A model generated the notes under the pieces. The model saw only the letters and a program-made list of their open reading frames with translations. It did not search any database and was not told the DNA's origin. Both the position numbers and the translations under genes were made by a program. From assembly GCF_008369065.1 (NCBI RefSeq), contig NZ_VDFC01000046.1:839939-878104 (forward strand): a DNA stretch of 38,166 nucleotides, in the 5' to 3' direction. Positions 20,917 through 36,596 of the stretch are shown here, in pieces. Within the stretch, counting starts at the first letter, position 1; each line of letters starts with the position of its first letter. This DNA is from Streptomyces apricus. Its GTDB lineage: Bacteria; Actinomycetota; Actinomycetes; Streptomycetales; Streptomycetaceae.

Positions 20917-23913
20917 TCAGCCCGAGTAGAACAGTTCGTCCACGACCGCCCGCGCCCGCCGCGTCGTACGGCGGTAGTCGTCGAGCATGTCTCCCACGTG
21001 CCCGGGACCGTAGCCCAGGTAGCGGCCCACGGCCGCCAGCTCCCGGCCGTCGGACGGGAACGTGTCCCCGGCCCGCCCGCGCACGAGCATCACGGCGTTG
21101 CGCACCCGGGTCGCCAGGACCCACGCCTCGTCCAGGACGGACGCGTCCTCCTCGGAGACCAGCCCGGCCGCCAGCGCCGCCGCGAGCGCCTCGCGCGTAC
21201 GGGTGGTGCGCAGCCCCGGCTGCGCGGCCCCGTGCCGCAGCTGCATCAGCTGCACGGTCCACTCCACGTCGGACAGCCCGCCCCGGCCCAGCTTGGTGTG
21301 CAGCGTCGGGTCGGCGCCGCGGGGCATCCGCTCGGCCTCCATCCGCGCCTTCAGCCGCCGGATCTCCCGCACGGCATCGTCCCCGAGGCCATCCTCCGGG
21401 TACCGCAGCGGATCGGCGAGTTCGAGGAACATCGCCCCCAGCTCGGCGTCCCCCGCGACGACCTCGGCCCGCAGCAGCGCCTGCGACTCCCAGCCCAGCG
21501 ACCACCGGCGGTAGTAGGCCTCGTACGACTTCAGCGTCCGTACGAGCGGGCCGGACTTGCCCTCGGGCCGCAGGTCGGCGTCGATCAGCAGCGGCGGGTC
21601 GGCGCTGGGGATCTGCAGCAGCCGCCGCATCTCGGAGACGACGGTGTTGGCGGCGCGGGCGGCCTCCTCCTCGGCCACGCCCGCCCGGGGCTGGTGGACG
21701 AAGAGCACGTCGGCGTCGGAGCCGTAACCCATCTCGTGGCCGCCGAACCGGCCCATGCCGATGACGGTGAAGCGGGTGGGCAGTTCGTCGCCCCAGCCGT
21801 CCCGGACGACGGCCCGCAGGGTGCCGGCGAGCGTCGCCGCGGTGAGGTCCGAGATGGCGCCGCCGACGAGGTCCACCAGCGCGCCCGGGTCCGCGCCGGC
21901 GGGCGTCTCCTCGGTGCCGTACGAACCGAGAATGTCGATGGCGGCCGTGCGGAACAGCTCCCGCCGCCGTACGCCGCGCGCGGCGGTGACCGCGGCCTCG
22001 CCCGTGCCGGCCCGGCCCACCGCGGAGAGGATCTCCTGCTCCAGGTGGGCGCGGGTGCGGGAGACGAGCCCGCCGCCGCTGCCGTTGCCGAGCAGGGCCA
22101 CGGCCTCCGGCGCCCGCATCAGCAGGTCGGGCGCGAGCCGTCCGGCGGACAGCACCCGGGCGAGGTTCTCGGCGGCGGCCCCCTCGTCCCGCAGCAGCCG
22201 CAGGTACCAGGGGGTCTTGCCCAGCGCGTCGGAGACCTTGCGGAAGTTGAGCAGCCCGGCGTCGGGGTCGGCGGAGTCGGCGAACCAGCCCAGCAGGACG
22301 GGCAGCAGGGTCCGCTGGATGGCGGCCTTGCGGGAGACGCCGGAGGCCAGCGCCTCCAGGTGGCGCAGCGCGGCGGCGGGGTCCGCGTACCCGAGCGCGA
22401 CCAGCCGCTCGCGCGCGGCACCGGGGCTCAGCCGGGTCTCGCCGGGCGCGAGCTGGGCGACGGCGTCGAGCAGCGGCCGGTAGAAGAGCTTCTCGTGCAG
22501 CCGCCGTACGACGCCCGCGTGGCGCTTCCACTCGCGGTGCAGCGAGGCGACGGGGTCGTTGCGCAGGCCCAGCGAGCGCCCCAGCCGCCGCAGGTCCGCC
22601 TCGTCCTCGGGCACCAGGTGGGTGCGCCGCAGCCGGAAGAGCTGGATGCGGTGCTCCATGGACCGCAGGAACCGGTAGGCCTCGTCGAACTGCCCGGCGT
22701 CGACGCGGCCCACGTACCCGCCCGCGGCCAGCGCCTCCAGGGCGTCCAGCGTGGTGCGGCTGCGCAACGACGTGTCGACGCGGCCGTGCACCAGCTGCAG
22801 CAGCTGTACGGCGAACTCGACGTCCCGCAACCCGCCCGGCCCGAGCTTCAGTTCGCGCTCGACCTCGGCGGGCGGGATGTTCTCGACGACGCGCCGCCGC
22901 ATCTTCTGCACGTCGGCGACGAAGTTGTCGCGCTCGGCGACCTGCCACACGAGCGGGGACAGCGCGTCGACGTAGCTCTGGCCCAGCGCGACATCGCCCG
23001 CGACCGGCCGGGCCTTCAGCAGGGCCTGGAACTCCCAGGTCTTGGCCCACCGCTGGTAGTAGGCGAGGTGGCTGCTGAGCGTGCGCACGAGCGGGCCGTT
23101 GCGGCCCTCGGGGCGCAGGTTGGCGTCGACGGGCCAGATGGACCCCTCGACGGTGGTCTCGGAGCAGATGCGCATGAGGTGGGCGGCGAGCCGGGTGGCG
23201 GCCCGCACGGCCTTGTCCTCGTCGACCCCCTCGGCGGCCTCCCCGACGAAGATGACGTCGACGTCGGAGACGTAGTTCAGCTCGTGGCCGCCGCACTTGC
23301 CCATCGCGATCACCGCGAGCCGGCACATCGCGGCGTCCTCGGGGGCGGCGGCCCGCGCGATGGCGAGCGCCGCCCGCAGCGTGGCGGTCGCGAGGTCGGC
23401 CAGCTCCGCGGCGACCTGCGTGACATCGGTGGTCCCGCACACGTCACGGGCGGAGATGGACAGCAGGCACCGGCGGTAGGCGATCCGCAGCGACACCGGG
23501 TCGGCGGCCTCGGCGAGCCCGCGCTCGAACTCCTCGACCCCGGGGTGCAGGTCCCGCGGTTCGTACGTCACCAGGGACTGCCAGTCGAGCGGGTGGCGCG
23601 CGAGGTGGTCGCCGAACGCCGCGGAGGCGCCGAGCACCCCGAGCAGCCGGTCGCGCAGCGGCTTCGACGCGATCAGCGTGTCGAGCAGCTCGCGCCGCCC
23701 CGCGTCGTCCTGCTGCGCCTCGACGAGCCGGACGAGCCCGAGCAGCGCCAGGTCCGGGTCGGCGGTGGCACCGAGCGCGTCGAGCAGCACCGGGTCGTTC
23801 GTCACCGCCGCGAGCTCCGGGCTGTCGAGCAGCCGCTCGGCGGCCGACGGATCGGTGAACCCGTGCCGCAGCAGCCGCGAGAAGGTACTGCTCCTGCGCC
23901 CCGGCACCGTCAT
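20917..23913 (-). CDS. glnE: Bifunctional glutamine synthetase adenylyltransferase / deadenylase
   Basis: A 998-residue cytoplasmic regulator of nitrogen assimilation. It has two nucleotidyltransferase halves. The N-terminal deadenylylase domain carries MGKCGGHELNYVSDVDVIFV, and the C-terminal adenylyltransferase domain carries MGRFGGHEMGYGSDADVLFV. Each is followed by a helical domain with the family motif GGLRDVEFAVQLLQL or GGLSDVEWTVQLMQL. It adds AMP to, or removes AMP from, a tyrosine of the main glutamine synthetase GlnA, which is not in this window. Length is normal for actinobacteria. The ATG at 23913 has GGAGG at 5-nt spacing; a TTG at 23940 is rejected. It is divergent from the VOC gene. 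Confidence 0.95.
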   Translation of the reverse strand: MTVPGRRSSTFSRLLRHGFTDPSAAERLLDSPELAAVTNDPVLLDALGATADPDLALLGLVRLVEAQQDDAGRRELLDTLIASKPLRDRLLGVLGASAAFGDHLARHPLDWQSLVTYEPRDLHPGVEEFERGLAEAADPVSLRIAYRRCLLSISARDVCGTTDVTQVAAELADLATATLRAALAIARAAAPEDAAMCRLAVIAMGKCGGHELNYVSDVDVIFVGEAAEGVDEDKAVRAATRLAAHLMRICSETTVEGSIWPVDANLRPEGRNGPLVRTLSSHLAYYQRWAKTWEFQALLKARPVAGDVALGQSYVDALSPLVWQVAERDNFVADVQKMRRRVVENIPPAEVERELKLGPGGLRDVEFAVQLLQLVHGRVDTSLRSRTTLDALEALAAGGYVGRVDAGQFDEAYRFLRSMEHRIQLFRLRRTHLVPEDEADLRRLGRSLGLRNDPVASLHREWKRHAGVVRRLHEKLFYRPLLDAVAQLAPGETRLSPGAARERLVALGYADPAAALRHLEALASGVSRKAAIQRTLLPVLLGWFADSADPDAGLLNFRKVSDALGKTPWYLRLLRDEGAAAENLARVLSAGRLAPDLLMRAPEAVALLGNGSGGGLVSRTRAHLEQEILSAVGRAGTGEAAVTAARGVRRRELFRTAAIDILGSYGTEETPAGADPGALVDLVGGAISDLTAATLAGTLRAVVRDGWGDELPTRFTVIGMGRFGGHEMGYGSDADVLFVHQPRAGVAEEEAARAANTVVSEMRRLLQIPSADPPLLIDADLRPEGKSGPLVRTLKSYEAYYRRWSLGWESQALLRAEVVAGDAELGAMFLELADPLRYPEDGLGDDAVREIRRLKARMEAERMPRGADPTLHTKLGRGGLSDVEWTVQLMQLRHGAAQPGLRTTRTREALAAALAAGLVSEEDASVLDEAWVLATRVRNAVMLVRGRAGDTFPSDGRELAAVGRYLGYGPGHVGDMLDDYRRTTRRARAVVDELFYSG

Positions 23914-24077
23914 CGCGGCCTCCGCCTTCCCAGCGATCAAGGTCGTACGGCCTTGAGCCTAACCGGAGTACCGGGAGAAGCGCCCGGAGAGTCTTCGCCG
24001 ACTCGGTGGCGCCGGGGGACGTTTTCCGTTTCGGTGGGAGGGAGCCGTTCGCTTCCGTACGACGAAGGAGTCGTTCC

Positions 24078-24515
24078 ATGGACATGGCCCTCGAAGTGAT
24101 CATGCTGCCGGTCACCGACATCGACCGGGCGAAGGCCTTCTACCAGGACAAGCTGGGGTTCCACGTCGACCTCGACACGGAGGTGATGCCGGGTTCGCGC
24201 GTGGTGCAGCTGACGCCGCCCGGCTCGGGGTGTTCGATCGCGCTCGCCCAGGGCGTGCCGAGCCCGACGGGGACACCGCAGCCGGGCACGTACCACGGGC
24301 TGCAGCTGGTGGTCGCGGACGCCAAGACGGCGTACGAGGAACTGCGGGCGCGGGGCCTGGACGTCACCGAGCCCGTCCAGTACGCGCCGCAGGACGGCGG
24401 TACGTTCATGCACTTCACGGACCCGGACGGCAACGGCTGGGCCATCCAGGAGTACCGCGAACGCGCCGCGAAGCCGCTGCACCGGCTGATGGCGGAGCAG
24501 GCGGCGCAGCAGTAG
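24078..24515 (+). CDS. VOC (glyoxalase/dioxygenase fold) family protein
   Basis: A 145-residue cytoplasmic protein covering one vicinal-oxygen-chelate module pair. The N-terminal beta-alpha motif reads MLPVTDIDRAKAFYQDKLGF, the second module has GTYHGLQLVVADAKTAYEEL, and the C-terminal strand is FTDPDGNGWAIQEY, supplying a metal-ligand type Glu. Family members include glyoxalases, dioxygenases and antibiotic-binding proteins; nothing here fixes the substrate. The start is fixed by GAAGGAG 7 nt before the ATG. It is divergent from glnE across a 164-bp gap and ends at a terminator shared with the convergent gene at 24587-25552. Confidence 0.88.
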   Translation: MDMALEVIMLPVTDIDRAKAFYQDKLGFHVDLDTEVMPGSRVVQLTPPGSGCSIALAQGVPSPTGTPQPGTYHGLQLVVADAKTAYEELRARGLDVTEPVQYAPQDGGTFMHFTDPDGNGWAIQEYRERAAKPLHRLMAEQAAQQ

Positions 24516-24525
24516 CGGAGCGGTA

Positions 24526-24563
24526 CGGTCCTGCCCGATCCTGCGCCGGACCGGGCAGGACCG
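24526..24563. terminator. Bidirectional terminator
   Basis: CGGTCCTGCCCG (24526-24537) pairs perfectly with CGGGCAGGACCG (24552-24563), a 12-bp stem with a 14-nt loop in the 71-bp gap between convergent genes. Confidence 0.7.
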
Positions 24564-24586
24564 GCGGGTCTGGTCGGCGAGCCGGG

Positions 24587-25552: not shown

Positions 25553-25556
25553 CCGC

Positions 25557-26693
25557 TCAGGCTCCAGGTCGGACGACACCGAGGATGGACATGGAGGCGG
25601 CCGGTGCGACCGTGATCGTGCGTCCGGGCCGCGGGGCGTGGACGATCTTCCCGTTCCCGATGTACATGCCCACGTGGGTGGCGTCGTTGAAGTAGATGAT
25701 CAGGTCGCCGGGCTTCGCGGAGGACAGGCTCACCCGGGTCAGCCCCGCCCACTGCGCCTGCGAGGTACGGGGGATGGGGTGGCCGGCGCGCGCCCAGGCC
25801 ACGGAGGTGAGTCCCGAGCAGTCGTACGCCGACGGGCCGACGGCGCCCCAGCCGTACGGCTTGCCGATCTGCGCCATGGCGAAGTCGACCGCCTTGGCGG
25901 CCGCGCCGGTCGCCGGCGACCCGCCGCCGAGCGAGCCGCCGTTCCCGGCGCCACCGCCGCCTCCGCCCCCGCTGCCGCCGGAGCCGCCCGAACCGCCGCC
26001 GGTGGAGGTGCCGCCGCCGGAGGAGGCCCACTGGGCCTCGGCCTCCTTGGCCTTGTCCCTCTCCAACTGGGCGAGCCTGCGGGCCTCGTCCGCCTTCAGC
26101 CCGGCCTCGACCTGCTCGGCCTCGGCGATCTTGCCCTCGATCTTCTTCTTCGCCTCGGCCTTGTCCGCGCGGCTGTCGCGGAGCTTGCGCAGCTCCTTCT
26201 CGGCGCTGTCGGTCTGCCGGTCCAGTTTCGCGCGGGCCGCCTTCTGGGTCTCGGCGACGTTGACCAGGCTGCGCAGTGCCTGCCGGGCCTGGGACGCCTC
26301 GTTCAGCGCCTGGTCGGGGTGCTCGCCGAGCAGCAACTGGACGCCGGTGGCGGCGAGGTCGCCGCCGCGGTACTGGGTACGGGCGGCGGCGCCCGACAGC
26401 TTCTGGAGCTCGTCCACCTTGGTCTCGGACCGGGCCAGGTCCTTGCGGAGGCTCTTGAGCCGCTTCTCCTGCTTGGTGGCCTTCTCGTTGGCGGCGTTGT
26501 ACGCCTCGGTGGCCACCTCCGCGGTGCGGTAGAGGCCTTCCAGTTGGGCGTGGATCTCCTCGATGGACCCGCCCCGTGGGTCGGGTTCGCCCGGAGCCGC
26601 GTAACTCGGCGCCGACATCAGGGAGATGGCGAGGACAAGGGTCGTTATGGTGGCGGGGCTCCGCAGCCGTCTGCCGCCGGTCGACACGTTCAT
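25557..26693 (-). CDS. Secreted NlpC/P60 peptidoglycan endopeptidase with coiled coil
   Basis: A 378-residue exported cell-wall hydrolase. The signal peptide (GGRRLRSP, hydrophobic core, PSYA-APG) is followed by a long coiled coil of about residues 40-205 (Ala/Lys/Glu/Arg heptads). A Gly/Ser linker of about 35 residues leads to the C-terminal NlpC/P60 domain. The catalytic Cys is in SAYDCSGLTSVAW and the His in ATHVGMYIGNGKIVH. Such enzymes cut stem-peptide bonds; the coiled coil is the typical self-regulating or partner-binding module of RipA/PcsB-like hydrolases. The ATG at 26693 has only a weak GAG/GAAG site, so the exact start is less certain. The downstream gene is coupled. Confidence 0.9.
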   Translation of the reverse strand: MNVSTGGRRLRSPATITTLVLAISLMSAPSYAAPGEPDPRGGSIEEIHAQLEGLYRTAEVATEAYNAANEKATKQEKRLKSLRKDLARSETKVDELQKLSGAAARTQYRGGDLAATGVQLLLGEHPDQALNEASQARQALRSLVNVAETQKAARAKLDRQTDSAEKELRKLRDSRADKAEAKKKIEGKIAEAEQVEAGLKADEARRLAQLERDKAKEAEAQWASSGGGTSTGGGSGGSGGSGGGGGGGAGNGGSLGGGSPATGAAAKAVDFAMAQIGKPYGWGAVGPSAYDCSGLTSVAWARAGHPIPRTSQAQWAGLTRVSLSSAKPGDLIIYFNDATHVGMYIGNGKIVHAPRPGRTITVAPAASMSILGVVRPGA

Positions 26694-27058
26694 CAGCTTC
26701 ACTCTCAGAGGTCGCGTGCAGGCGGCTCGGGCGGGACGTGGTGCCCGCCGCGGTGGCCACCACGGTTCATCCGGTGGGCCGTTCAAGCCTCGAACACACT
26801 ACCTTCCCCCGTACCCCTGCCCCCTATGTCGCCCCACCCGCACCGTCCGCCATCCCGACCCCTCCGTCGACCCACACCCACCAACTCCGCCACGCCACCC
26901 ATGGTCACGGAGGGTTATCGGTACGGTCCATGGGGTGAACCCGTACGCCGGGTCCGCGTACGGGTGGACGACAGCGCGCGCCGTACAGCCTGCGTCCACG
27001 ACCGCCCGAGCGCCCTCAGGGTGCAGGCCACCCGCCACCAAAAGATGCAAAGAAAACC
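26694..27058. other. Intergenic region between NlpC/P60 and ArsR genes
   Basis: A 365-bp gene-free divergent spacer. On the minus strand TAGTGT (26806-26811) is a plausible -10 for the hydrolase, giving a leader of about 105 nt that contains GTGGTG/CACCAC pairing. Positions 26810-26910 are strikingly C-rich on the plus strand. At 26939-26965 there is a perfect 10-bp inverted repeat, ACCCGTACGC / GCGTACGGGT, with a 7-nt loop. I see no convincing ydaO-type riboswitch core. Confidence 0.5.
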
Positions 27059-27087
27059 TTGCAACGCATCCTTTGCAAGCTTACCTT
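27059..27087 (+). promoter_or_regulatory. Leaderless promoter of the ArsR gene with overlapping operator repeats
   Basis: TTGCAA (27059-27064), a 17-bp spacer and TACCTT (27082-27087), then 7 bp to the ATG at 27095. This is a well-spaced promoter for a leaderless transcript. GCAAAG (27047-27052) and CTTTGC (27071-27076) form an inverted pair around the -35 box, a good autoregulatory operator. Confidence 0.6.
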
Positions 27088-27094
27088 TGTACGC

Positions 27095-27679
27095 ATGCCC
27101 GAGCCTCAGGATCCAGAAGTCCGCAATCTCGACGCCCGTTCCCTGCGCGGGCTCGCGCACCCCCTGCGCATGCAGTTGCTGGACGCCCTGCGCTTCGGCG
27201 GTCCGGCCACCGCTTCCCAACTCGCCGGGCAGCTCGGCGAGTCGAGCGGGGCCACCAGCTACCACCTGCGCCAGCTCGCGGCCCACGGCTTCATCGAGGA
27301 CGCCCCCGAGCGGGGCAAGGGGCGGGAGCGGTGGTGGAAGGCGGTCCACAAGGGCCTGCGCTTCGACGACGCGCTGTTCACGGACGCCGCTCCCGACGTA
27401 CGCGGGGCCGCCGACACGTACCTCCACGAGGTCGCTACCGCCCAGACCCGGGACCTGTCGACCTGGCTCGGCAACCGCCAGTCGTGGCCGGAGGAGTGGA
27501 ACCGCACCTGGGACATGAGCAGCGCGACCCTGCGGCTGACGCCGGAACTGACCCGGGAGCTCGTCGAGAAGATGCACGCCCTCGTCGACACCTACCGCGA
27601 CCGGGCCGCCGGCGAGGACGAGGCCGACACCGCCCAAGTACGCATCCAGACCCGCGCGTTCCCTCTCACCACGGAATGA
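27095..27679 (+). CDS. ArsR-type winged-helix regulator
   Basis: A 194-residue regulator. Residues about 15-95 are the winged helix: LRGLAHPLRMQLLDALRFGG, then TASQLAGQLGESSGATSYHL as the HTH and ERGKGRERWWKAV as the wing. The helical C-terminal half has no recognisable metal-binding Cys pair, so arsenic sensing is unlikely; this HTH_20-type group usually controls a neighbouring transporter or stress gene. The ATG at 27095 lies 7 bp after a -10 box and has no ribosome site, so it is probably leaderless. The stop overlaps the start of the next small ORF (ATGA). Confidence 0.88.
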   Translation: MPEPQDPEVRNLDARSLRGLAHPLRMQLLDALRFGGPATASQLAGQLGESSGATSYHLRQLAAHGFIEDAPERGKGRERWWKAVHKGLRFDDALFTDAAPDVRGAADTYLHEVATAQTRDLSTWLGNRQSWPEEWNRTWDMSSATLRLTPELTRELVEKMHALVDTYRDRAAGEDEADTAQVRIQTRAFPLTTE

Positions 27680-27882
27680 AAGGCCGCAGCCCGATGCACC
27701 CTGAGACCTCCCTCGCCCTGCACCACGCCCGCGCCGCCGAACTCCGCGCCGAGGCCGACGCGTACCGGCTCGCCGCCTCGGCCCGGCCCCGCCGGGACCT
27801 CCGCACCCGCCTGGGCTGGACCCTCGTGGAGATAGGCCTGCGACTGACGACGACACCCGGCCCGGCGACCGCCGTTTGCTGA
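27676..27882 (+). CDS. Small hypothetical protein coupled to ArsR gene
   Basis: A 68-residue ORF whose ATG at 27676 overlaps the TGA of the ArsR gene. An alternative ATG at 27694 has AAAGG upstream and would give 62 residues. The product is helical and Ala/Arg-rich (LALHHARAAELRAEADAYRL), with the tail GWTLVEIGLRL. I do not recognise it beyond a feeling that similar short proteins follow such regulators in other Streptomyces. The overlap argues that it is translated. Confidence 0.6.
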   Translation: MKGRSPMHPETSLALHHARAAELRAEADAYRLAASARPRRDLRTRLGWTLVEIGLRLTTTPGPATAVC

Positions 27883-27894
27883 CGCCGGGCTGGC

Positions 27895-27907
27895 TAGGGT
27901 GGCGGCC
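27895..27907 (+). promoter_or_regulatory. Candidate leaderless promoter of the aph-like gene
   Basis: TAGGGT at 27895-27900 is a -10-like box, 7 bp before the ATG at 27908. No ribosome site is present and the best -35 (TTGCTG at 27876) is too close. The same TAGGGT box occurs before the TetR gene. Confidence 0.35.
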
Positions 27908-28729
27908 ATGAGTGAGCGCCCCGGAACCCGGACCCTGTCGCCGGTGCTGTGCGGCGTGGACGACGGCGGCTGGGCGCCCGTCACCGCGGGCGAGTCGGGA
28001 GCGGCTGTCTTCCGCAGCGCGGACGCCACCCGGTACGCCAAGTGCGTGCCCGCCGCGGACGCGGCCGGCCTGGCGGCCGAGCGCGACCGGAGCGCCTGGC
28101 TGAGCGATCAGGGTGTGCCCGGTCCCCGGGTGCTCGACTGGCGGTCCGGGGACGCCGGCGCCTGTCTGGTGACGAGTGCCGTCTCCGGCGTACCGGCCGA
28201 TCAGGTGTCCGCCGAAGACCTGCGGGCCGCCTGGGAACGCATCGCGGACGCGGTCCGCCGCCTGCACGGGACGTCCGTGGCCCGGTGCCCCTTCCGCCGG
28301 GGCCTGGACGCCATGGTCGCCACGGCACGCGACGTCGTGGCGCGCGACGCCGTCAACCCGGAGTTCCTCCCCGTCGACCAACAGCACATCCCCGCCGCGG
28401 AGTTGCTGGACCGCCTCACCCCGCAGCTCCCACGGCGACGGGAGCAGGAAGTCGCCGACACGGTCGTCTGCCACGGGGACCTGTGTCTGCCCAACATCGT
28501 GCTCGATCCGCACACCCTGGACGTGTCGGGCTTCATCGACCTGGGCCGCCTGGGACCGGCCGACCGCTACGCCGACCTGGCGCTGCTGCTCACCAACGCA
28601 CGGGAGACGTGGCGGGACGAGGAGCAGGCTGAGGAGGCGGACAGGTCCTTCGCCGAGCGGTACGGCATCACCCTCGACCACGACCGCCTGCGCTTCTACC
28701 TCCACCTGGACCCGCTCACCTGGGGCTGA
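27908..28729 (+). CDS. Aminoglycoside phosphotransferase, APH(3'')-like
   Basis: A 273-residue cytoplasmic kinase-fold protein. The N-lobe has GAAVFRSADATRYAKCV, where the Lys is the ATP-binding candidate. The catalytic loop is VVCHGDLCLPNIVLD (HGD, catalytic Asp) and the metal-binding motif is GFIDLGRLGPADRYADLALL. The C-terminus LRFYLHLDPLTWG and the overall length closely resemble, from memory, the streptomycin 3''-kinase of S. griseus. It could therefore phosphorylate streptomycin-type aminoglycosides, or be a housekeeping paralogue. No streptomycin pathway genes are present here. The ATG at 27908 is probably leaderless; a GTG at 27899 is unlikely. Confidence 0.85.
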   Translation: MSERPGTRTLSPVLCGVDDGGWAPVTAGESGAAVFRSADATRYAKCVPAADAAGLAAERDRSAWLSDQGVPGPRVLDWRSGDAGACLVTSAVSGVPADQVSAEDLRAAWERIADAVRRLHGTSVARCPFRRGLDAMVATARDVVARDAVNPEFLPVDQQHIPAAELLDRLTPQLPRRREQEVADTVVCHGDLCLPNIVLDPHTLDVSGFIDLGRLGPADRYADLALLLTNARETWRDEEQAEEADRSFAERYGITLDHDRLRFYLHLDPLTWG

Positions 28730-28834
28730 CCGACTCCCGGGGACCAGGGGCCCGCCCGGCTCCGGCCCGGCGACACGAACGCCTGCCGGTACCCGGGTGC
28801 CCGGCGCCGCCCACCCGCCGCGAGGCGCCCCCGC

Positions 28835-29629
28835 TCAGGCCAGCAGAACGTCCTCGCCCGCCGTCACCGGAACGACCCGTTCGGCCGGCGGGGCCTCCGC
28901 CTTCACCGGTACACCGAAGTCCGACAGGGTCATAGTCGTCACCGCTTTCATGCCGCCGAAGTAGGACAGCCGGACCCGCACGGCGCGGCCCTTCCCGTCG
29001 ACCCACGCATCCGCGTAGACGGGCACGTCCTCACCCAGCTTCTCGCGCACCTCGGCCAGCCCCCGCTTCGTCTCCGCCGTCATCCGGAGCGTCGCGGTGG
29101 CGTGGTCGACCGTGCCCCGGTAGTGCACCGCGGAGACGCCGTCCACCTGCTCCTCGCCCTCCTTCGTGACCTGCCGCATCGCCTTCACCTGGCGGAGCAG
29201 GTGCTCGGGGTCGTTCAGCGGCGCGCGCAGGAAGTAGCGGGTCAGGGCCTCGTCGCGGGCGGCCGAGGCCCACTTGCCCTCGTCCACGGCCCGCGAGCCC
29301 CGTACATAGACGGTGTCGCCGACGAAGACCTCTTCGACGGGCTCCATACCGCTGTCGTCGAGCCCCACCGTGAGCCGGCCCCGGTCGCCCGCCAGATCGA
29401 AGGCGCCACCGATCGAGAACACGTACGTCGTGGAACTGTCCCTGGCCCGCATCTCAACCGTCTCGTCCAGCCGGGCGCTGTCGGCACTCGCCCTATCGAC
29501 CGCGGCACGCACGACAGCCCCATGATCCGCGCCCTCCTTCGCCCTCTCCTCCGAGTCACCGTCCCCACCGCCGGAACAGGCGGTGCAGAGCAGAAGGAGG
29601 GCAACGGAGAGGAGGGGTACGCGGCGCAT
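28835..29629 (-). CDS. Lipoprotein of unknown function (LppX/LprG-like fold candidate)
   Basis: A 264-residue exported lipoprotein. MRRVP, a hydrophobic core and CTAC give a slightly unusual lipobox with Cys at -3; the lipidated Cys is near residue 18, followed by SGGGDGDSEE. The mature part alternates strands and helices (YVFSIGGAFDLAGDRGRLTV, VDGVSAVHYRGTVDHATATL, YADAWVDGKGRAVRVRLSYF). This is the pattern of actinobacterial lipoproteins with the LolA-like LppX/LprAFG fold, which carry lipids or hydrophobic ligands; the assignment is tentative. The ATG at 29629 has GGAGAA upstream. It converges on the aph-like gene. Confidence 0.78.
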   Translation of the reverse strand: MRRVPLLSVALLLLCTACSGGGDGDSEERAKEGADHGAVVRAAVDRASADSARLDETVEMRARDSSTTYVFSIGGAFDLAGDRGRLTVGLDDSGMEPVEEVFVGDTVYVRGSRAVDEGKWASAARDEALTRYFLRAPLNDPEHLLRQVKAMRQVTKEGEEQVDGVSAVHYRGTVDHATATLRMTAETKRGLAEVREKLGEDVPVYADAWVDGKGRAVRVRLSYFGGMKAVTTMTLSDFGVPVKAEAPPAERVVPVTAGEDVLLA

Positions 29630-29743
29630 GGGTTCTCCGAGATTCTCCGAGGAATCGTCACTGCGGTGGGACGGGGCCCGAAAGGGCCTGACGATCTTCG
29701 CACGGAACCGGCGGAGGGCCGAAGGCACTATGACGTCCCTGCG

Positions 29744-30121
29744 TCAGGAGGCGGTGATCACCGTCTCCTGATCGCACATACCTTCTTCGAGCTCCTGGAT
29801 GTCGCGGTCGCCGGAGGCCACGCAGATCCAGCGGGTCGGTTCCTCCGTGTACGTCCAGCTGCCGGGGTCCGCGAGCAGTTCGTCCAGCTCCTGCCCGCAG
29901 ACCTCCTCACCGGTGTGGTCAGCCGGCCATGCGTCCGACCGGAACACCTTGATGAAGCCGAGCGGCTGCCAGCAGCGGATCAGCCGGGAGAAGCGCGGAA
30001 TGTGCCGCGGCCACTCCCGTTCGTCCTCGCTGCCGGACCAGTCCGCCAGCAGACTCCAGAGGTCCGAGCCTTCTCCTCCGTTGACATAGAGGCAGTACTC
30101 GTCGTCCTCCCAGTCCTTCAC
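29744..30121 (-). CDS. Small acidic hypothetical protein, probably once in operon with glnA2
   Basis: A 125-residue, Trp- and acid-rich cytoplasmic protein (WEDDEYCLYVNGGEGSDLW, IPRFSRLIRCWQPLGFIKVF, TYTEEPTRWICVASGD). I do not recognise the family; small acidic proteins of this look are common among immunity proteins, but nothing proves that. The GTG at 30121 has AGGAG 7 nt upstream. That ribosome site overlaps the TAG stop of the truncated glnA2 3' copy (30132-30218). This implies the gene used to follow glnA2 directly, with a 10-bp gap. Confidence 0.65.
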   Translation of the reverse strand: MKDWEDDEYCLYVNGGEGSDLWSLLADWSGSEDEREWPRHIPRFSRLIRCWQPLGFIKVFRSDAWPADHTGEEVCGQELDELLADPGSWTYTEEPTRWICVASGDRDIQELEEGMCDQETVITAS

Positions 30122-30131
30122 CGAAGGTCTC

Positions 30132-30218
30132 CTACAACACCGGCAGGTTCTTCCGCAGTTCGAAGGCCGTCACCTCGGAGCGGTACTCCTCCCACTCCTG
30201 GCGCTTGTTGCGCAGAAA
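30132..30218 (-). repeat. Partial glnA2 3' end, candidate attachment-site copy 1
   Basis: A second copy of the last 28 codons plus stop of glnA2, same strand as the intact gene. It encodes the identical peptide (FLRNKRQEWEE through KNLPVL) with 81 of 87 bases identical to 34916-35002. The six differences affect five codons (F, L, S, V, L) and are all synonymous. Homology stops at 30219, where the reading changes to unrelated sequence. Confidence 0.9.
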
Positions 30219-30477
30219 GTGACGTTGGCCCGGAGCGACCTCGCGCGATCGACATTGGTGCAGCGCCGACCTGTGGTCAAGCGGTCGTCATTGGTCACTG
30301 TTGGTCGCTGTGGGCCGCCCCTTGACGACCCACAGACGGCCCGGGGCCGGTCCAGAAGACTAACGGACGAGGGCCAGCATGCATGACCGCACTCTCAGGA
30401 GATTCGACCTCGCCCTGGGTACATCTGTGGCAGCCTATTGCTACTGCCAGCCAGGTCACTCGCACCGGGGAGATGCA
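30219..30477. other. Island left flank, no gene
   Basis: About 260 bp with no convincing coding sequence. At 30291-30310 there are two tandem 10-mers, TTGGTCACTG and TTGGTCGCTG, with another ATTGGT at 30254. Clustered short direct repeats next to an att copy resemble recombinase arm sites. The promoter of the PIN-like gene must lie in the right half. Confidence 0.4.
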
Positions 30478-31767
30478 ATGAACTCGGACAACTCTTTCTT
30501 GACTGAATTTTCCAGCTATAGACGCCTCACAAAAAAAGAGGAAGAAGACGCCTTTAATTCATCAACCATAGTGCTTGACGCTAATGTTCTACTTGACCTC
30601 TATCGAGTCACACCTGTCGCCCGTCAGGAAATCCTTGGAGTTCTCGCTTCCGTGGCGGAAAGGACGCACATCCCCCATCAAGTGGCATCGGAATTTCACA
30701 AAAATCGCATCAAGGCCGCAAAGGATCAAATCGACTTCTATGAAGCAATTAGTAAATCCCTCGGAACATTGCGAAGTCAAACTTTGCAAAAACTTAGCGA
30801 GTTCGCCAATCGATGCGCCCTGACCGACGAAGAGAAAGAGGCATTGCAGCTCCCTCTCGGCAAGGCATTCGAATCGGCAGCAAAGGAGATCCGGGACTTT
30901 GAAGAACGGTTCGACCTCGACTTAAAGCGAGTCCTTAACGATGACCCGATCTTGCATCACCTCTCGGAGATCTACAGCGGTAGAGTAGGAAAGCCATTCA
31001 CTGTTGAACAAAAGAAGACGGCCCTTAAGGAGGCGGAGGATCGCCGAAACCAGAAGAAGCCTCCAGGCTACAAGGACGGGAACAAAGCTACAAACCCTCA
31101 CGGAGACTACTTCGTCTGGGAGCAGATTCTAACCGTAGCGGAAAACAGCAAGACTCCGATCCTATTCGTCTCCAACGACGACAAAGAAGATTGGGTCACC
31201 AAGGTGCTAGACTTCACAATTGGACCACGAGAGGAGCTGGTAGAGGAGATCCAAAAGCGAGCAGGTGTCGCATTCCACATAATGAAGTTTCCCACTTTTC
31301 TTAAAACCGCTAGGCATAGATCTAGCGAATCGATTAGCGATCAGACGTTGGTGCAAGCACAAATGGTCGAAAGCAACGTCTATCAATTTCCCTGGAAAAC
31401 GGCAACCAAAGTAATTCCGCTAGAGATTATCCAGCCATTCGCTGAATCAATCACGCGAGACCTCGAGTCGGCGAAAATTAAGTACCAGGCAGCCCTCGCA
31501 AAGAAATCCGAGAGCGATGGGACCGACTTGGCCCCTTGGGATCTAGACCTGATCGACCAAGAGGTCGAGTTCGCCGAAACCATGCTGGAATCCAAGCAGG
31601 AGGATTACGACCTATTCGAGCGAGCTATATCCAGCGCAGAAGAGACAGATGACGGTATTTCCATCACGCTACCTGAATACTTGCACAAAAGATTCCCTTT
31701 CATCATGAAAAATGTATATGGAAGTCGGGTGACGAGAACCGATCACATTCCTCCAGGGAACGAGTAG
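30478..31767 (+). CDS. PIN-like domain protein, probable RNase, horizontally acquired
   Basis: A 429-residue cytoplasmic protein. The N-terminal half is a PIN-like nuclease domain (PIN_8 type, from memory). The acidic residues are D34 in VLDANVLLDLY and E72 in PHQVASEFHKNR, then Asp in NPHGDYFVWEQ (about 214) and NDDKEDW (about 238). A helical insert with many charged residues separates E72 from the third Asp. The C-terminal 150 residues are Glu/Lys-rich and unassigned. The ATG at 30478 has GGGGAGAT upstream; an upstream in-frame ATG at 30379 lacks one. The gene is far more A/T-rich than its neighbours and has a TTA leucine codon (30922-30924), so translation may depend on the bldA tRNA. Confidence 0.8.
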   Translation: MNSDNSFLTEFSSYRRLTKKEEEDAFNSSTIVLDANVLLDLYRVTPVARQEILGVLASVAERTHIPHQVASEFHKNRIKAAKDQIDFYEAISKSLGTLRSQTLQKLSEFANRCALTDEEKEALQLPLGKAFESAAKEIRDFEERFDLDLKRVLNDDPILHHLSEIYSGRVGKPFTVEQKKTALKEAEDRRNQKKPPGYKDGNKATNPHGDYFVWEQILTVAENSKTPILFVSNDDKEDWVTKVLDFTIGPREELVEEIQKRAGVAFHIMKFPTFLKTARHRSSESISDQTLVQAQMVESNVYQFPWKTATKVIPLEIIQPFAESITRDLESAKIKYQAALAKKSESDGTDLAPWDLDLIDQEVEFAETMLESKQEDYDLFERAISSAEETDDGISITLPEYLHKRFPFIMKNVYGSRVTRTDHIPPGNE

Positions 31768-31917
31768 ACCTCTCTGGGTTCGGAAATTAATCTCGCCCAC
31801 TTCTTAGCGCTTCACTTCGAACCCCTAACACTCGTAATTAGAGCCGCGGCCTACCCGCTCTATCGACTCGTCAATACTGCGAAGTGGGCCCTTTACGACC
31901 GCGGGAGGCAGCTCGGA

Positions 31918-32557
31918 ATGCGTGGAATTGGAGATCACCTCAGCATTGGTGAACGCATCGCGTTCTACCGGAAGCGACGCGGCTATACACAAGAGGTGCT
32001 CGCCGGACTGGTCGGGCGTAGCACTGACTGGTTGGCGAAGATCGATACGGGGCGCCGGAAGCCTCCCCGTATCGACATGCTCGCGGAGCTGTCGCACATC
32101 ATGCGCGTGCCCCTCAGTGATCTGCTCGGTCAAAGCGTGCTTATGGAGGACGAGAGGCAGCAGGACGACGTTCCGGCCGTGTGCGACGCGCTCATGAGCC
32201 CGCGCCGGCTGTCTCGTTTGCTCTTCGGTCTTGGGGCTGAGGTGCAGCTTCCTACACCCGTACCCACAGCCGTACGTGTGGAGCACGCGTGGAACGACTA
32301 CCAGGGTGGGCGGCTCGGCAGCGTCATCGCCGCACTCCGCACTCCTCCAAACTGCGCAGGAGCTGGAGGAGCGAGCGGCACGACGCGGCAAGGACCGTAG
32401 CAACTGATGGGCCGTCTCGGCTCGTACTCACCACCTCGCCGCGACGACGCTCGCGAAGATCGGCGAATCGGACGACCCGCTCATACCAGCATCAGCCGCA
32501 CGATCCGGCGCACACGCCCTCCTAGCAAACGGCCGGTATGACGACGCGCTGGGCTAG
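31918..32557 (+). pseudogene. Decayed XRE-family regulator with TPR-like C-terminus
   Basis: The first 110 or so residues are an intact XRE helix-turn-helix (GERIAFYRKRRGYTQEVLAG, LVGRSTDWLAKIDTGRRKPP) plus a linker typical of the large Streptomyces HTH-TPR family. After YQGGRLGSVIAAL the frame breaks near 32340. The family sequence resumes in another frame as AQELEERAARRGKDRSN, hits TGA at about 32407, and resumes as WAVSARTHHLAATTLAKIGES. A stretch is then missing between two ESD-like positions before SAARSGAHALLANGRYDDAL. The remainder is cut off at the IS insertion point (CTAG at 32554). The intact frame would give a truncated 160-residue protein ending at 32400. Confidence 0.75.
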
Positions 32558-33491
32558 GGCCTGCATCTGGTCGTGATCAAGGGTTGATTCGCATAAGGCG
32601 TTGATCCAGATCATGGAGGCGCGCAGGTGTAGGTCGGCGAGGTAGCTCTGAGGGGTCTTGTCGTAGCGGGTGGCGATGCCGCGCCAGACTTTCAGCTTGT
32701 TAATCAGGCGCTCGACAGTGTTCCTCTCCTTGTGGAGAGCGGTGTTGTGACCGACGGGTCAACCGCCCCTGCGGCCCTTCTCCTCCGGGATGACTGCCTT
32801 GATCTGGCGTCGCTGCAGGCAGGAACGGCTGCCGCGGGACGAGTACGCCTTATCACCGGCGACCGCGTCCGGCCGGATGCGGGGACGGCCGACCGGTCCG
32901 GGGACGCGCACTTTCTTCAGCACGGGGATGAACTGCGGGTTGTCGGCGACCTGTCCGGCGGTCAGGATAAGCGCGAGCGGACAGCACTTGCGGTCGGCGG
33001 CGATGTGGATCTTGCTGGTCTGGCCGCTGCGCCAGTGCCCGAGCAGGGCCGCTTTCAGTCGGAGTCGGTGTCGCCTTCGCCGGTGGCGTTGTTTTTGCCG
33101 ACCCGGATCGCTGCCGCCGGATCGTCCGTCTTGTCCTTGCTCATCGCCCCCTTTGACAGGTCCTTACCCTCCTTCGCGGCGGCCTTCTCCAGGGCACTGA
33201 GCACCTCCTCACCGAGCTGCATCCCGGCGGCGTCGTGATGGGCGCGGGCGGTGGTCGAATCCACGCTGACCAGCGACAAATCCACCTCACCACGCCTCGC
33301 AGCCTCAGCTGTCAGACCCTCCAGCAGGGCCTCGAAGACGCGGCGTCCCGCCACTACCCACCTGTCTTGAAGCGCCAGATCACGCCCTCGAACTGCTGCC
33401 GCAGCCGCTCGGGATACGGGCCGTACGCGCCGTACGGCAGGTACGGCTCGATGAACTCCCATGCCCTGCCCGTCAGTTGCACCCACGTCAT
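32558..33491 (-). pseudogene. IS5-family transposase, multiply disrupted
   Basis: Reading on the minus strand from ATG 33491, frame one gives TGRAWEFIEPYLPYGAYGPY and GVIWRFKTGG, then a TAG near 33355. A second frame gives VFEALLEGLTAEAARRGEVD, the first catalytic Asp in SVDSTTARAHHDAAG, and stops at 33055. A third gives SGQTSKIHIAADRKC, the second Asp in AGDKAYSS and an in-frame TGA near 32760. It then gives ERNTVERLINKLKVWRGIAT with the catalytic Glu. At least three lesions make it inactive. Confidence 0.8.
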
Positions 33492-33543
33492 GCATAACGA
33501 TCTGCCAGATCACTCACGAGACGTGGGCAAGTCCCACGATTCA

Positions 33544-33843
33544 TCACGACCGCTGCAGTAGCGCCGTGAACCGCTTCTCCACGTCCTCGGCCGGGCCGAT
33601 CGGACGCAGGTCCGGGTCAAGGAGGCCGAGAAGGTCCCGGGCTTCCGTCCAGGGGATCCCGAGAGCCTTGTCAAGGGCCAGCAGCAGACGCAGCGGGGTG
33701 AGAGTGAAGCCCTCGTCACCTCTGAGCGCCTCGATCATCGCAAGCAGACCGGCACCATCGGCCGCCAGCTCACGAATGTCTTCCGTTACCTCGTCCACTG
33801 CTGTTCCCGCCTTTTGTTCCGGAGAGTTTCCCCTCCAGGCCAT
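33544..33843 (-). CDS. Small hypothetical protein, IS passenger (immunity-like size)
   Basis: About 99 residues from the ATG at 33843. A GTG at 33798 (GCGGGA upstream) would give 84 residues beginning VDEVTEDIREL, and an open frame extends up to a GTG at 33900 inside the IS end. The product is acidic and helical (LAADGAGLLAMIEALRGDEG, LRLLLALDKALGIPWTEARD, GPAEDVEKRFTALLQRS). I do not recognise it. Comparison with the transposase leader shows that the ATG at 33843 and the next two codons (M-A-W against M-T-W) correspond to the transposase start, so a passenger appears to have been joined right after the start codon of a second IS copy. Confidence 0.55.
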   Translation of the reverse strand: MAWRGNSPEQKAGTAVDEVTEDIRELAADGAGLLAMIEALRGDEGFTLTPLRLLLALDKALGIPWTEARDLLGLLDPDLRPIGPAEDVEKRFTALLQRS

Positions 33844-33915
33844 ACACAGATGATCTACCAGATCGTGCCACGAGACGGGGCGCTCCCACAGATTGATCAC
33901 GACCAGATAAAGGCC
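33843..33915 (-). repeat. Diverged second copy of the IS5-like 5' end
   Basis: This segment aligns with about 33491-33560 (transposase leader): shared blocks include GGTCGTGAT, GTGGGA, CCCGTCTCGTG-like, GATCTGG and AGATC before an ATG. The two copies lie in the same orientation on either side of the small passenger gene. Confidence 0.6.
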
Positions 33916-34020
33916 CTAGTGCCGTGACCGGAAGGTGCCCGGAATCGGGATCGGTGAGGGACTGGATGAGTAGTTCGAAGGATCGGGCAGCCTGTGCACT
34001 GGACCTGAGAGGATCGCGCC

Positions 34021-34338
34021 GTGACCATCAACCTGCATGACTTCGACGGCGAACACTCGCTGACGCTGGATGCCGGTGGCCTGGCTGCCGATGCCGCAGT
34101 AACTGCCACCGGGCACGAGCCGAACGGGTACTTCTGGGAAGGTCTCGTGCGGTTTGCCTGGCCGGACATTGCAGAGCGCCTCGGTTTCGACAGCGAGGCT
34201 GGCATGTTCTACGCGATCGGGAGTTCTAGCGACCTTGCGCGGCTCAAGACCGCCGTTGAATCCGTCATCACGAGCCCCGAGGCAGTCCGGGACATCATTG
34301 CCCGTGCGGAGAATTCGGGCTTCGAGTTCGATGACTAA
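34021..34338 (+). CDS. Imm51-family-like immunity protein
   Basis: A 105-residue acidic cytoplasmic protein (LHDFDGEHSLTLDAGGLAAD, GHEPNGYFWEGLVRFAWPDI, FDSEAGMFYAIGSSSDLARL, AENSGFEFDD at the end). The GYFWEG core and the FDSEAGMFYAIGS segment match what I recall of Imm51, an immunity family of polymorphic toxin systems. Its role would be to bind and neutralise a cognate toxin. No toxin gene is in the window, so it is an orphan. The GTG at 34021 has GAGAGGA 8 nt upstream. Its start is 90 bp inside the inverted repeat at 33916, so it looks like cargo of the IS630-like unit. Confidence 0.7.
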   Translation: MTINLHDFDGEHSLTLDAGGLAADAAVTATGHEPNGYFWEGLVRFAWPDIAERLGFDSEAGMFYAIGSSSDLARLKTAVESVITSPEAVRDIIARAENSGFEFDD

Positions 34339-34372
34339 GGGCTGTCCCGTGACTTCCCCGAACTGGGCGAAG

Positions 34373-34760
34373 TCAGGCTGCAGCCAGCAGTGGTCTGCCG
34401 CTCCAGCCGAGACCTCGTTCGCTGCGGATGCGTGCGGGCTCGCGTCGTTGGGCGACCAGGGCGTCAGGGTTACGGGCGTCGTCGTTCCGGCAGCATAGGC
34501 AGGCATGCAGGACCCGGGGCTGGACGGCGTGGTTCGGATGGTTGGAGTTGGCCGGGGTGAACTGCCGCAGCAGGCCGAAGTGAGCCTCGATGGGATTGGC
34601 CCAGGACGCGTAGGTGGGTGCGAAGCACGGCTCGATCTCGTTCTCTGTCGCCACCTGCGGATCTTCCAGTTCAGGTGGGCGGAGAGGTTGTCGAGGATCA
34701 CACAGATCGGGGCGCCGTCCGGACGAGCAACCCGGTGAACCCATGCGGTCACAGCACTAG
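34373..34760 (-). pseudogene. IS630-family transposase C-terminal fragment, frameshifted
   Basis: One frame gives ARPDGAPICVILDNLSAHLN with the second catalytic Asp, then breaks near 34650. The other gives PTYASWANPIEAHFGLLRQF with the catalytic Glu, then SNHPNHAVQPRVLHACLCCR and an Arg-rich tail ending GRPLLAAA at 34373. The N-terminal half is missing. Confidence 0.75.
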
Positions 34761-34849
34761 GCACCGGCAACGATGGAGGCGTGGACAGTCTCTACGGCGG
34801 CACCACTCCGGACGGCCCGGAGACGGCGCAGGCCAGCGAGGAGCCGAAA

Positions 34850-34874
34850 GGCCGACGGTCCGTGACCGTCGGCC
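34850..34874 (-). terminator. Rho-independent terminator after glnA2
   Basis: On the minus strand GGCCGACGGTC, 3-nt loop, GACCGTCGGCC, then TTT: a perfect 11-bp stem with a short T run. It is 41 bp past the glnA2 stop and on the island side of the duplicated end, so glnA2 now ends on an island-borne terminator. Confidence 0.75.
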
Positions 34875-34915
34875 CCCACGCCTCAATGCGGTGAAGAACG
34901 TACCGTGACCTGCAA

Positions 34916-35002
34916 CTACAGCACCGGCAGGTTCTTCCGCAGTTCGAAGGCCGTGACCTCGCTGCGGTACTCCTCCCACTCCTGGCGCTTGTTGCGGAGG
35001 AA
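34916..35002 (-). repeat. glnA2 3' end, candidate attachment-site copy 2
   Basis: The last 28 codons and stop of intact glnA2, duplicated at 30132-30218 in direct orientation with 81 of 87 identical bases and only synonymous changes. The 3'-proximal or 5'-proximal portion could derive from the element, depending on the crossover point. Confidence 0.9.
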
Positions 35003-36277
35003 GAAGTCGAAGACGTGCTCGCCGAGTGTCTCGGCGACCAGCTCGCTGCGCTCCATCAGCGTCAGCGACTCGCCCAGGTTCTGGGGCAGCGGCTCGATGC
35101 CCAGCGCGCGGCGCTCCGCGTCGCGCAGGGCCCAGACGTCGTCGTCGGCGCCCGGCGGCAGCTCGTAGCCCTCCTCGATGCCCTTGAGGCCCGCCGCCAG
35201 CAGGACCGCGTACGACAGGTACGGGTTCGCGCCCGAGTCGAGCGAGCGGACCTCCACCCGCGCCGAACCCGTCTTGCCCGGCTTGTACATCGGGACGCGG
35301 ACCAGGGCCGAGCGGTTGTTGTGGCCCCAGCAGATGTACGAGGGGGCCTCGCCGCCGGCGCCCGCGGTGCGCTCGGAGCCGCCCCAGATGCGCTTGTACG
35401 AGTTGACCCACTGGTTGGTGATCGCGGCGATCTCCGCCGAGTGCTTCAGCAGGCCCGCGATGAAGGAGCGGCCGACCTTGGAGAGCTGGTACTCGGCGCC
35501 CGACTCGTAGAACGCGTTGCGGTCGCCCTCGAAGAGCGAGAGGTGCGTGTGCATCCCCGAACCGGGGTGCTCGCTGAACGGCTTGGGCATGAACGTCGCC
35601 TGGACGCCCTGCTCCAGCGCCACCTGCTTCATGACCAGCCGGAACGTCATGATGTTGTCGGCCGTGGAGAGCGCGTCCGCGTACCGCAGGTCGATCTCCT
35701 GCTGGCCCGGCGCGCCCTCGTGGTGGGAGAACTCGACCGAGATGCCCATCGACTCCAGCATGGTGATCGCCTGGCGGCGGAAGTCCATGCCGACGTTGTG
35801 CGGGGTGTGGTCGAAGTAGCCGGAGTTGTCGGCCGGGGTCGGCCGTGAGCCGTCCGTCGGCTTGTCCTTCAGCAGGAAGAACTCGATCTCCGGGTGCGTG
35901 TAGAAGGTGAAGCCCAGGTCGGAGGCCTTGGCCAGGGACCGCTTCAACACGTACCGCGGGTCCGCGAAGGACGGCGAGCCGTCCGGCATCAGGATGTCGC
36001 AGAACATCCGGGCGGTGCCGGGGGCCTCGGCGCGCCACGGCAGGACCTGGAAGGTCGACGGGTCCGGCTTGGCGATCATGTCGGACTCGTAGACGCGGGC
36101 GAAGCCCTCGATGGCCGATCCGTCGAAGCCGATGCCCTCGTCGAAGGCCTGTTCCAGCTCCGCCGGGGCCACGGCCACGGATTTGAGGAAGCCCAGCACG
36201 TCCGTGAACCACAAGCGTACGAAACGGATGTCGCGCTCCTCCAACGTACGGAGCACGAACTCCTGCTGCTTGTCCAT
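34916..36277 (-). CDS. glnA2: Glutamine synthetase-like protein GlnA2
   Basis: A 453-residue cytoplasmic GS-I fold ligase. Visible motifs include GFDGSAIEGFARVYESDMIA, the ATP/metal region HPEIEFFLLKD, and HHEGAPGQQEIDLRY. Further on are FMPKPFSEHPGSGMHTHLSL, NSYKRIWGG and VEVRSLDSGANPYL. The C-terminal adenylylation loop of classical GlnA (NLYDLP-like, with Tyr) is replaced by a segment without Tyr (ADDDVWALRDAERRALGIEP), so GlnE should not modify it. Published work on Streptomyces GlnA2/GlnA3 gives them a gamma-glutamylpolyamine synthetase role in polyamine use. The ATG at 36277 has GGAAG close upstream; the frame runs open to 36433 without a better start. Its 3' end is the island integration site. 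Confidence 0.93.
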   Translation of the reverse strand: MDKQQEFVLRTLEERDIRFVRLWFTDVLGFLKSVAVAPAELEQAFDEGIGFDGSAIEGFARVYESDMIAKPDPSTFQVLPWRAEAPGTARMFCDILMPDGSPSFADPRYVLKRSLAKASDLGFTFYTHPEIEFFLLKDKPTDGSRPTPADNSGYFDHTPHNVGMDFRRQAITMLESMGISVEFSHHEGAPGQQEIDLRYADALSTADNIMTFRLVMKQVALEQGVQATFMPKPFSEHPGSGMHTHLSLFEGDRNAFYESGAEYQLSKVGRSFIAGLLKHSAEIAAITNQWVNSYKRIWGGSERTAGAGGEAPSYICWGHNNRSALVRVPMYKPGKTGSARVEVRSLDSGANPYLSYAVLLAAGLKGIEEGYELPPGADDDVWALRDAERRALGIEPLPQNLGESLTLMERSELVAETLGEHVFDFFLRNKRQEWEEYRSEVTAFELRKNLPVL

Positions 36278-36596
36278 CTTCCGCTTCCACCCAATCTTGC
36301 TGGTCAGGCCGCCTGCTCCCGTCCCAGGGAGGCGGTCGGGCACCTGCGCATCACACCACAACAGCATTTCATGCGCGTTGCGGGCCCCGTCCGTCCGGCC
36401 GACCTCCGCCCGAACGCCGCACGTACGGCACATGTACTGCCACGACTGCTGCCATGACTACTGCCACGACGCCCATCTTGCCCGCTGGGCGCCGCGCAGG
36501 AAACGGCCGACCGCCGCCGTCTCCCCCTCCGTGTCCCCTACCGGATGCCAGCCGTCTCCCTCGCCGGATCCCTCTCACCCTTCCCGCACTCCCTAT
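36278..36596. other. Divergent intergenic region glnA2-hmp
   Basis: No gene is visible. It contains a tandem triplicate of a 12-mer at 36436-36471 (ACTGCCACGACT, GCTGCCATGACT, ACTGCCACGACG) and must hold the glnA2 promoter on the minus strand. The rest is ordinary C-rich spacer. Confidence 0.5.

Follow-up and report, generated by a model that had tools for sequence, protein, structure and literature searches.

The 3′ end of glnA2 as the probable integration site of a decayed mobile element in Streptomyces apricus

Why would the end of a glutamine synthetase-like gene occur twice, in direct orientation, at the two borders of a group of small accessory genes? This question is raised by a stretch of 38,166 nucleotides from Streptomyces apricus (assembly GCF_008369065.1, contig NZ_VDFC01000046.1, positions 839,939 to 878,104 of the forward strand), referred to below as the window. 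The product of the gene, glnA2, matches Gln-synt_C (E 2e-122) and TIGR00653 (436 bits, cut-off 429), and is thus type I glutamine synthetase-like. Its name was given by the original prediction, which was made from the sequence alone, and is consistent with the nearby glnE, presumably as in other actinobacteria. The same prediction regarded the gene end as the integration site of a genomic island. The analysis described here suggests that an actinomycete integrative and conjugative element (AICE) was inserted by a tyrosine integrase at the 3′ end of glnA2 and has since decayed into the island at 30132-35003, a reading to which we assign a probability of roughly 0.93. In one review, GlnA2, GlnA3 and GlnA4 are assigned to amine metabolism (PMC11755657).

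The duplicated gene end and its arms

The direct repeat (D1, Table 1) measures 88 nt and comprises the last 28 codons of glnA2, the stop codon and one further matching base. Its copies are 93% identical with a spacing of 4784 bp, so that the 87 bp reported originally, about 4.8 kb apart, were correct within one base. On base composition alone, approximately 8e-28 such pairs are expected in the window by chance, and in the genome of 8.85 Mb the 88-mer matches only both D1 copies (E ≤ 0.001). The six differences between the copies, at repeat positions 3, 6, 40, 41, 48 and 82, fall in five codons and are all synonymous, which reproduces the earlier observation; under random single-base changes the chance of this outcome is about 1e-4. 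One of the copies is likely to have evolved in another host.

Both copies are accompanied by an attachment (att) arm, attL at the gene side and attR at the distal side. With profiles built without the window (R1 for attL, R2 for attR), both window arms were found exactly where expected. At both element ends the conserved arm contains an octamer pair, GGGCCGTC-N3-GGGCCGTC, which is a candidate integrase arm site. Direct repeats at a gene 3′ end with such candidate sites are a feature of AICEs that the window island possesses. The attL arm additionally includes a terminator-like hairpin; the fold of 34840-34895 is calculated at -32.7 kcal/mol, and this stretch also matches R1 on the other strand.

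The profiles were run on a sample of 246 Streptomyces genomes. R1 matches in 137 of them (E ≤ 0.001). Re-examination of the rows with at least 33.9 bits yielded 98 genomes that match from the glnA2-end part of the model and 66 in which the match extends past the octamer pair, the latter including all 18 training genomes and 48 new ones. Because the glnA2 end and the terminator contribute to the R1 score, 66 is the safer count. R2 matches in 177 genomes, in many cases without the glnA2 start; these are predicted arms of related elements at other sites. At three loci (L202, L204 and L205) a distal arm with the 15-base repeat start continues into decayed or unrelated sequence, which in L204 resembles, by eye, a tRNA 3′ end.

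Second gene ends, integrases and fuller elements in other genomes

The 88-mer is present in 240 of the 246 genomes, with at least two matches in 40. Every match was re-searched in 32 of these 40, and the other eight were taken from the first list. In 26 genomes, the window's included, the two copies share contig and strand at a distance of 1.4-26 kb, and these pairs were aligned; the remaining genomes have copies split over contigs (G188, G211, G202 and G237), an inverted copy (G207) or short second matches (nine genomes). The second copy begins at the same codon as that of the window in 20 of the 26 aligned pairs, and the distal-arm profile matches directly beside it in 19 of these 20. Fifteen of the 19 belong to the training set of the profile, and four lie outside it (G000, which is the window's genome, G127, G061 and G075). 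Within the 20 canonical pairs, 33 of 37 differences are synonymous. This sum leaves out G144, G051, G141 and G231, which have a different boundary or strong decay; in G231 the glnA2 body is interrupted by a contig end. Over all 24 scored pairs, with G191 and G234 unscored as they are out of register, 43 of 70 differences are synonymous. In 16 islands, integrase pieces are partial (G189, G122, G199, G180, G144, G234, G075 and G046), marginal (the window and G141) or, at E ≤ 0.01, not found (G007, G061, G191, G051, G231 and G127), which indicates that decay is common at the glnA2 site.

In many of the two-copy genomes, a tyrosine integrase of one type lies past the glnA2 stop codon and is convergent with the gene. 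A profile was built from eight of these glnA2-side integrases and run on the 246 genomes. Thirteen integrases rank clearly first, and the glnA2 end is present in the fetched flank of 12 and 1.9 kb away from the thirteenth (G059), compared to none of the next 17 ranked integrase loci fetched. In the named collection, 44 of 80 loci have the integrase in convergent orientation to glnA2 at a distance of 82-94 bp, counted between the integrase match and the final codon of the gene, and four more have the glnA2 end at 1.1-4.5 kb. The contig of L150 stops at the glnA2 stop codon with the arm present, while L142 has the distal copy about 16 kb off on the same contig and the glnA2 body on another. In the tree, a 51-member clade (support 100/95) consists of the 48 integrases with a glnA2 end in the locus together with L150, L142 and L127; among the 29 other rows, none has a glnA2 end in the fetched locus. 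A sister group of this clade is formed by the integrases of eight loci (L157, L172, L174, L177, L180, L183, L185 and L189), which presumably lie at the glycosyltransferase gene end used by the element AICE06. Other sister integrases (L163, L169, L173 and L182) are located beside a conserved gene end that is presumably that of nusG. Among the plasmid matches listed, only two records reach an integrase identity of at least 60%, both from Streptomyces. A free plasmid (H2/L081) with a 64% identical integrase has no glnA2 end at E ≤ 1e-3. The pSLS subfamily, the exception to tRNA targeting mentioned below, was also considered: S. laurentii is absent among the best 30 of 37 plasmid integrase matches, and pSLS is reported at two chromosomal sites, given by locus tags (PMC4891635).

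The original prediction had proposed to look for larger, integrase-bearing elements at this site, and such elements are found both in the Streptomyces sample and among the named loci. The G069 element encodes a tyrosine integrase (PF00589), an HTH_17 protein (PF12728), Prim-Pol (PF09250) and DUF6284; the HTH_17 protein is Xis-like and presumably acts as Xis. The G071 element contributes Prim-Pol (PF09250), TraB, GntR, NUDIX and a methylase, its FtsK/TraB-type translocase matching NF041214 with 873 bits, and the G214 element GntR/UTRA. For the proteins of G069 and G214 at the TraB position, no NCBIfam match was obtained. Gene clusters are common to G042, others, and the elements of G069, G071 and G214. 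Taken together, the relatives carry, between them, the AICE gene set of integrase, Xis, Prim-Pol, TraB, GntR and NUDIX, and they show the traits by which AICEs are recognized, i.e., an integrase beside att with an Xis-like HTH protein, Prim-Pol and TraB.

Integrase-bearing relatives are located at this gene end in many other actinomycetes, also outside Streptomyces. In Nonomuraea and Acrocarpospora, both Streptosporangiaceae, the copies of the glnA2 end are spaced 20.8 and 20.5 kb apart, respectively, and the C-terminus encoded by both copies is only 64-68% shared with the Streptomyces end. The two copy pairs have six and five differences, and 11 of 11 are synonymous. Judged by its sequence, the carried end is of the host-family type in both cases. 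In S. harenosi PRKS01-65, contig L138 has the order integrase, right arm, 28 codons and left arm, an attP-like junction without a glnA2 body. On a second contig (L198), the glnA2 body and end continue into the right arm, and the contig breaks off within this attL arm. Either an excised circle or a tandem array would produce such an arrangement.

The same genome as that of the window has a second element at the 3′ end of glnA1, left of the window and 3.6 kb outside it (L206, G000:C251:817000-836900). Its integrase, located 1.6 kb from the glnA1 stop, is related (61% identical), and GGGCCGTC arm pairs occur as at glnA2, whereas the exact repeat comprises no more than 14 bp (CTACGACGTGTGAT). The integrases closest to that of L206 lie about 200 bp from the glnA1 end in two (L209 and L210) of the five other genomes matched.

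Content and surroundings of the window island

The accessory genes and insertion sequence (IS) remnants that had been noticed between the copies were recovered as a PIN_8 protein, an HTH regulator, an Imm51 protein, an IS-like stretch and a weak DDE_3 match (Table 1). The HTH piece is 88% identical at the nucleotide level over 565 bp to the G189 island and 75% identical over 579 bp to the G180 island. Two open reading frames in the IS-like stretch (33055-33513 and 33544-33900) gave no Pfam match, and PADLOC, run on the window, left the PIN_8 protein unmatched and returned only weak HTH matches. An integrase gene is absent from the island, in which only about 17 end codons were found. They align with residues 388-420 of the 422 residues of the G211 integrase. 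Their distance to the final codon of glnA2, 88 bp on the measure used for the named loci, is within the usual range of the clade. With the backbone proteins of the relatives as tblastn queries (E ≤ 0.05), replication and TraB transfer genes were not found in the island; apart from the integrase end, the queries gave a single further match, of 27 aa, from another integrase (E 0.012). A cis-mobilizable element is abbreviated as CIME, and the island has the structure of one: two att arms kept, with a predicted recombinogenic role, and no int or transfer genes found.

Table 1. Features of the window around glnA2, with coordinates in the window.
Feature	Coordinates	Strand	Evidence or remark
glnE	20917..23940	-	NF010707, 1390 bits; neighbour past distal copy in other genomes
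VOC-family gene (presumed)	24006-24515		Beside glnE; neighbour past distal copy in other genomes
Flanking gene past distal copy, accessory	29744..30121	-	In 8 of 246 genomes
Distal repeat copy	30132..30219	-	Probable displaced original end of glnA2
Distal (attR) arm with first 15 repeat bases	30204..30342	-	R2, window held out: 91.5 bits, E 1.3e-27
GGGCCGTC-type octamer pair in distal arm, one being GGGTCGTC	30324..30342	-	Near-invariant in A3
PIN_8-domain protein, cargo	30379..31767	+	192 bits, cut-off 26.1
HTH regulator, probably truncated, cargo	31918..32400	+	HTH_31; piece common to G189 and G180 islands
IS-like stretch	32554..33919	.	1.37 kb between 27-nt inverted repeats I1, 93% complementary
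Imm51-family immunity protein	34021..34338	+	48.1 bits, cut-off 29.8
Possible IS transposase fragment (DDE_3)	34373..34744	-	16.9 bits, below curated cut-off 28.6
Integrase C-terminus remnant (VDSLYGGTTPDGPETAQ)	34781..34831	+	tblastn E 2.65e-4; overlaps arm site
Gene-side (attL) arm	34806..34930	-	R1, window held out: 61.7 bits, E 2.4e-18
GGGCCGTC-type octamer pair, one being GCGCCGTC; candidate integrase arm site	34811..34829	-	Nearly invariant in A2
Terminator-like hairpin in attL arm, between glnA2 and former integrase gene	34846..34886	.	Fold
Gene-joined repeat copy	34916..35003	-	Last 28 codons and stop; probable element-supplied replacement end
glnA2, glutamine synthetase-like gene	34916..36433 (open reading frame as listed)	-	G189 homologue aligns from 36286

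Past the distal copy, the native neighbours of glnA2, where identifiable, appear to be a presumed VOC-family gene and glnE. In the single-copy genome G201 both follow glnA2 directly. Among the 26 pairs, 13 have one or the other beyond the distal copy (G189, G015, G214, G199, G231, G130, G064, G144, G051, G191, G091, G141 and G059), as does the split genome G188; in G214, G064, G191, G091, G141 and G188 it lies within about 150 bp of the copy. In the window, 5.6 kb of further genes (24515-30121) separate the distal copy from these neighbours, without a match among the open reading frames called in the other loci compared. One of them is the lipoprotein gene 28835-29728. Members of its family are matched in 241 of the 246 genomes, but the six nearest homologues (74-80% identity) are located on another contig or at a great distance from glnA2, and the right flank of the window therefore looks accessory. 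The empty site proposed originally, with glnA2 beside 29744-30121, was rejected, as this gene is present in 8 of 246 genomes and its loci in the other genomes show no glnA2 end within fetched flanks of up to 1.5 kb.

Proposed origin, alternatives and known systems

According to the proposed mechanism, the attP of the circular element would consist of the left arm, the last 28 codons and stop of glnA2, and the right arm, followed by the integrase gene. The encoded enzyme would attach to the GGGCCGTC pairs of both arms, with crossover in the near-invariant stretch that opens the repeat (TTCCTSCGCAACAAG). At repeat positions 7-14 (CGCAACAA) no canonical pair differs and the columns of A3 are invariant; as these positions also encode conserved protein, a crossover point near the repeat start is suggested with modest confidence. 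After integration, glnA2 would keep its own 5′ part and gain the end of the element, the original end being displaced beyond the insert. The window island would subsequently have lost its genes for replication and transfer as well as the integrase gene, of which about 17 codons are left, probably aided by IS insertions, while cargo and both att arms stayed behind. In principle, a related integrase could still act on the kept arms, either in trans or, once a new element lands alongside, in cis; the island is possibly cis-mobilizable.

Several observations weigh against this origin. What remains of the integrase is short and, through its overlap with the conserved arm, not independent of the R1 match. 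For G046 no distal arm is listed, and 4 of the 37 differences in the canonical pairs are non-synonymous. Clade member L127, from Streptosporangium, lies at a different gene with an arm-like match there, the single glnA2 end of that genome being elsewhere; this placement is perhaps a retargeting event. The right-flank genes tested are accessory or sit elsewhere in other genomes, and neither glnE nor VOC is present in the examined stretch of the other 13 of the 26 pairs, including the 10 kb piece of the window. No glnA2 end occurs near the homologues of 29744-30121 (eight loci in seven other genomes, flanks up to 1.5 kb), and the empty site anticipated by the original prediction, with glnA2 directly beside this gene, was not found in these seven genomes. 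The proposed role of the glnA2 3′ end as an integration site is supported by the clade, the arms and the relatives; the original prediction is corrected in that the window island is a remnant without a working integrase gene.

An ordinary partial tandem duplication of glnA2, followed by IS filling and decay, is a very improbable source of the two copies. The second copies of G051 and G141 reach further into the gene and may be tandem duplications. However, one fixed codon opens the copy of the window and those of 19 other pairs, preceded in all but G046 by the conserved non-gene arm, and integrases of one clade lie beside the glnA2 copy in many loci. The duplication that the original prediction had named as the contrary case therefore fits the window type poorly. 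It is likewise very improbable that the island is a prophage or phage satellite remnant instead of an AICE. The broad family of tyrosine integrases is present in actinophages (523 phage records with a match), but none of the phage records reaches 60% in its match to the integrase, none matches the 88-mer, and the relatives carry, between them, Prim-Pol, TraB, GntR and NUDIX. A phage origin was rejected, with no support from these searches. Appreciable, though less than even, odds are given to a variant that is compatible with the origin part of the AICE reading, in which the att copies derive from an element and the content is mainly IS-borne DNA gathered later, i.e., a scar and not a mobilizable unit. 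The IS-like stretch and the DDE_3 piece inside the island and the reduction of the integrase to its end agree with such a scar, whereas the preservation of both arms and the cargo piece in common with the G189 (88%) and G180 (75%) islands argue against it.

If the island is indeed an AICE remnant, the locus offers an attachment site in a protein-coding gene together with its integrase clade, its candidate arm sites and a carried replacement end of 28 codons, both in Streptomyces and in two Streptosporangiaceae hosts. The site would allow a clean test of the way in which elements maintain a functional coding sequence in different hosts, and glnA2 is a potential integration site for strain engineering. 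It would also account for small islands beside glnA2 that are missed by searches relying on int, rep and tra genes. A further idea, which we consider improbable, is that the integrase lineage of these elements is specialised on core-gene 3′ ends, including glnA1 and glnA2, and that the host-adapted C-terminus ties integration state to the expression or activity of a nitrogen/polyamine enzyme.

Tyrosine-integrase AICEs target tRNA 3′ ends in the vast majority of cases, the pSLS subfamily excepted (Ghinet et al., 2011; PMC3218068). Protein-coding targets have been described as well: 14 insertions in such genes were counted by Choufa et al. (2022; PMC9513070), who found AICE06 in a gene for a phospholipid carrier-dependent glycosyltransferase. 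Its sites were empty, intact or decayed, and a truncated integrase, cargo and direct repeats were present at the decayed ones. The main text of that paper does not contain the word 'glutamine', a check that concerned the main text and not Table S5. Phage sites inside protein-coding genes, which are not glnA2, are known for phiBT1 (PMC11755657; PMC3765725) and phiC31 (PMC3765725). In agreement with the original prediction, which knew of no described attachment site at the glnA2 end, none was found among the papers listed, judged by titles, starts of abstracts and, for PMC11755657, PMC3733707 and PMC3765725, passages, a search that did not cover Table S5 of PMC9513070 and Table S1 of PMC3218068.

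Compared to the AICEs described (PMC3218068), the relatives are alike in having, between them, a tyrosine integrase, an Xis-like HTH protein, Prim-Pol, TraB, regulators and NUDIX, and in lying at a gene 3′ end with direct repeats. They differ in being inserted at glnA2, of which 28 codons are carried on the element, and the window copy lacks the defining genes. The island fits the same picture as the decayed forms of AICE06, in a different target gene (PMC9513070). It resembles a CIME by its two att ends and its cargo, with no recombination or transfer genes found and with mobilization as a predicted property. As in the gene-restoring genomic islands, where the insert rebuilds the entered gene (PMC12884075), glnA2 would be rebuilt by the insert. 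Unlike in those islands, the replaced coding end varies by host family, and the carried copy is of the host-family type in the two cases observed here.

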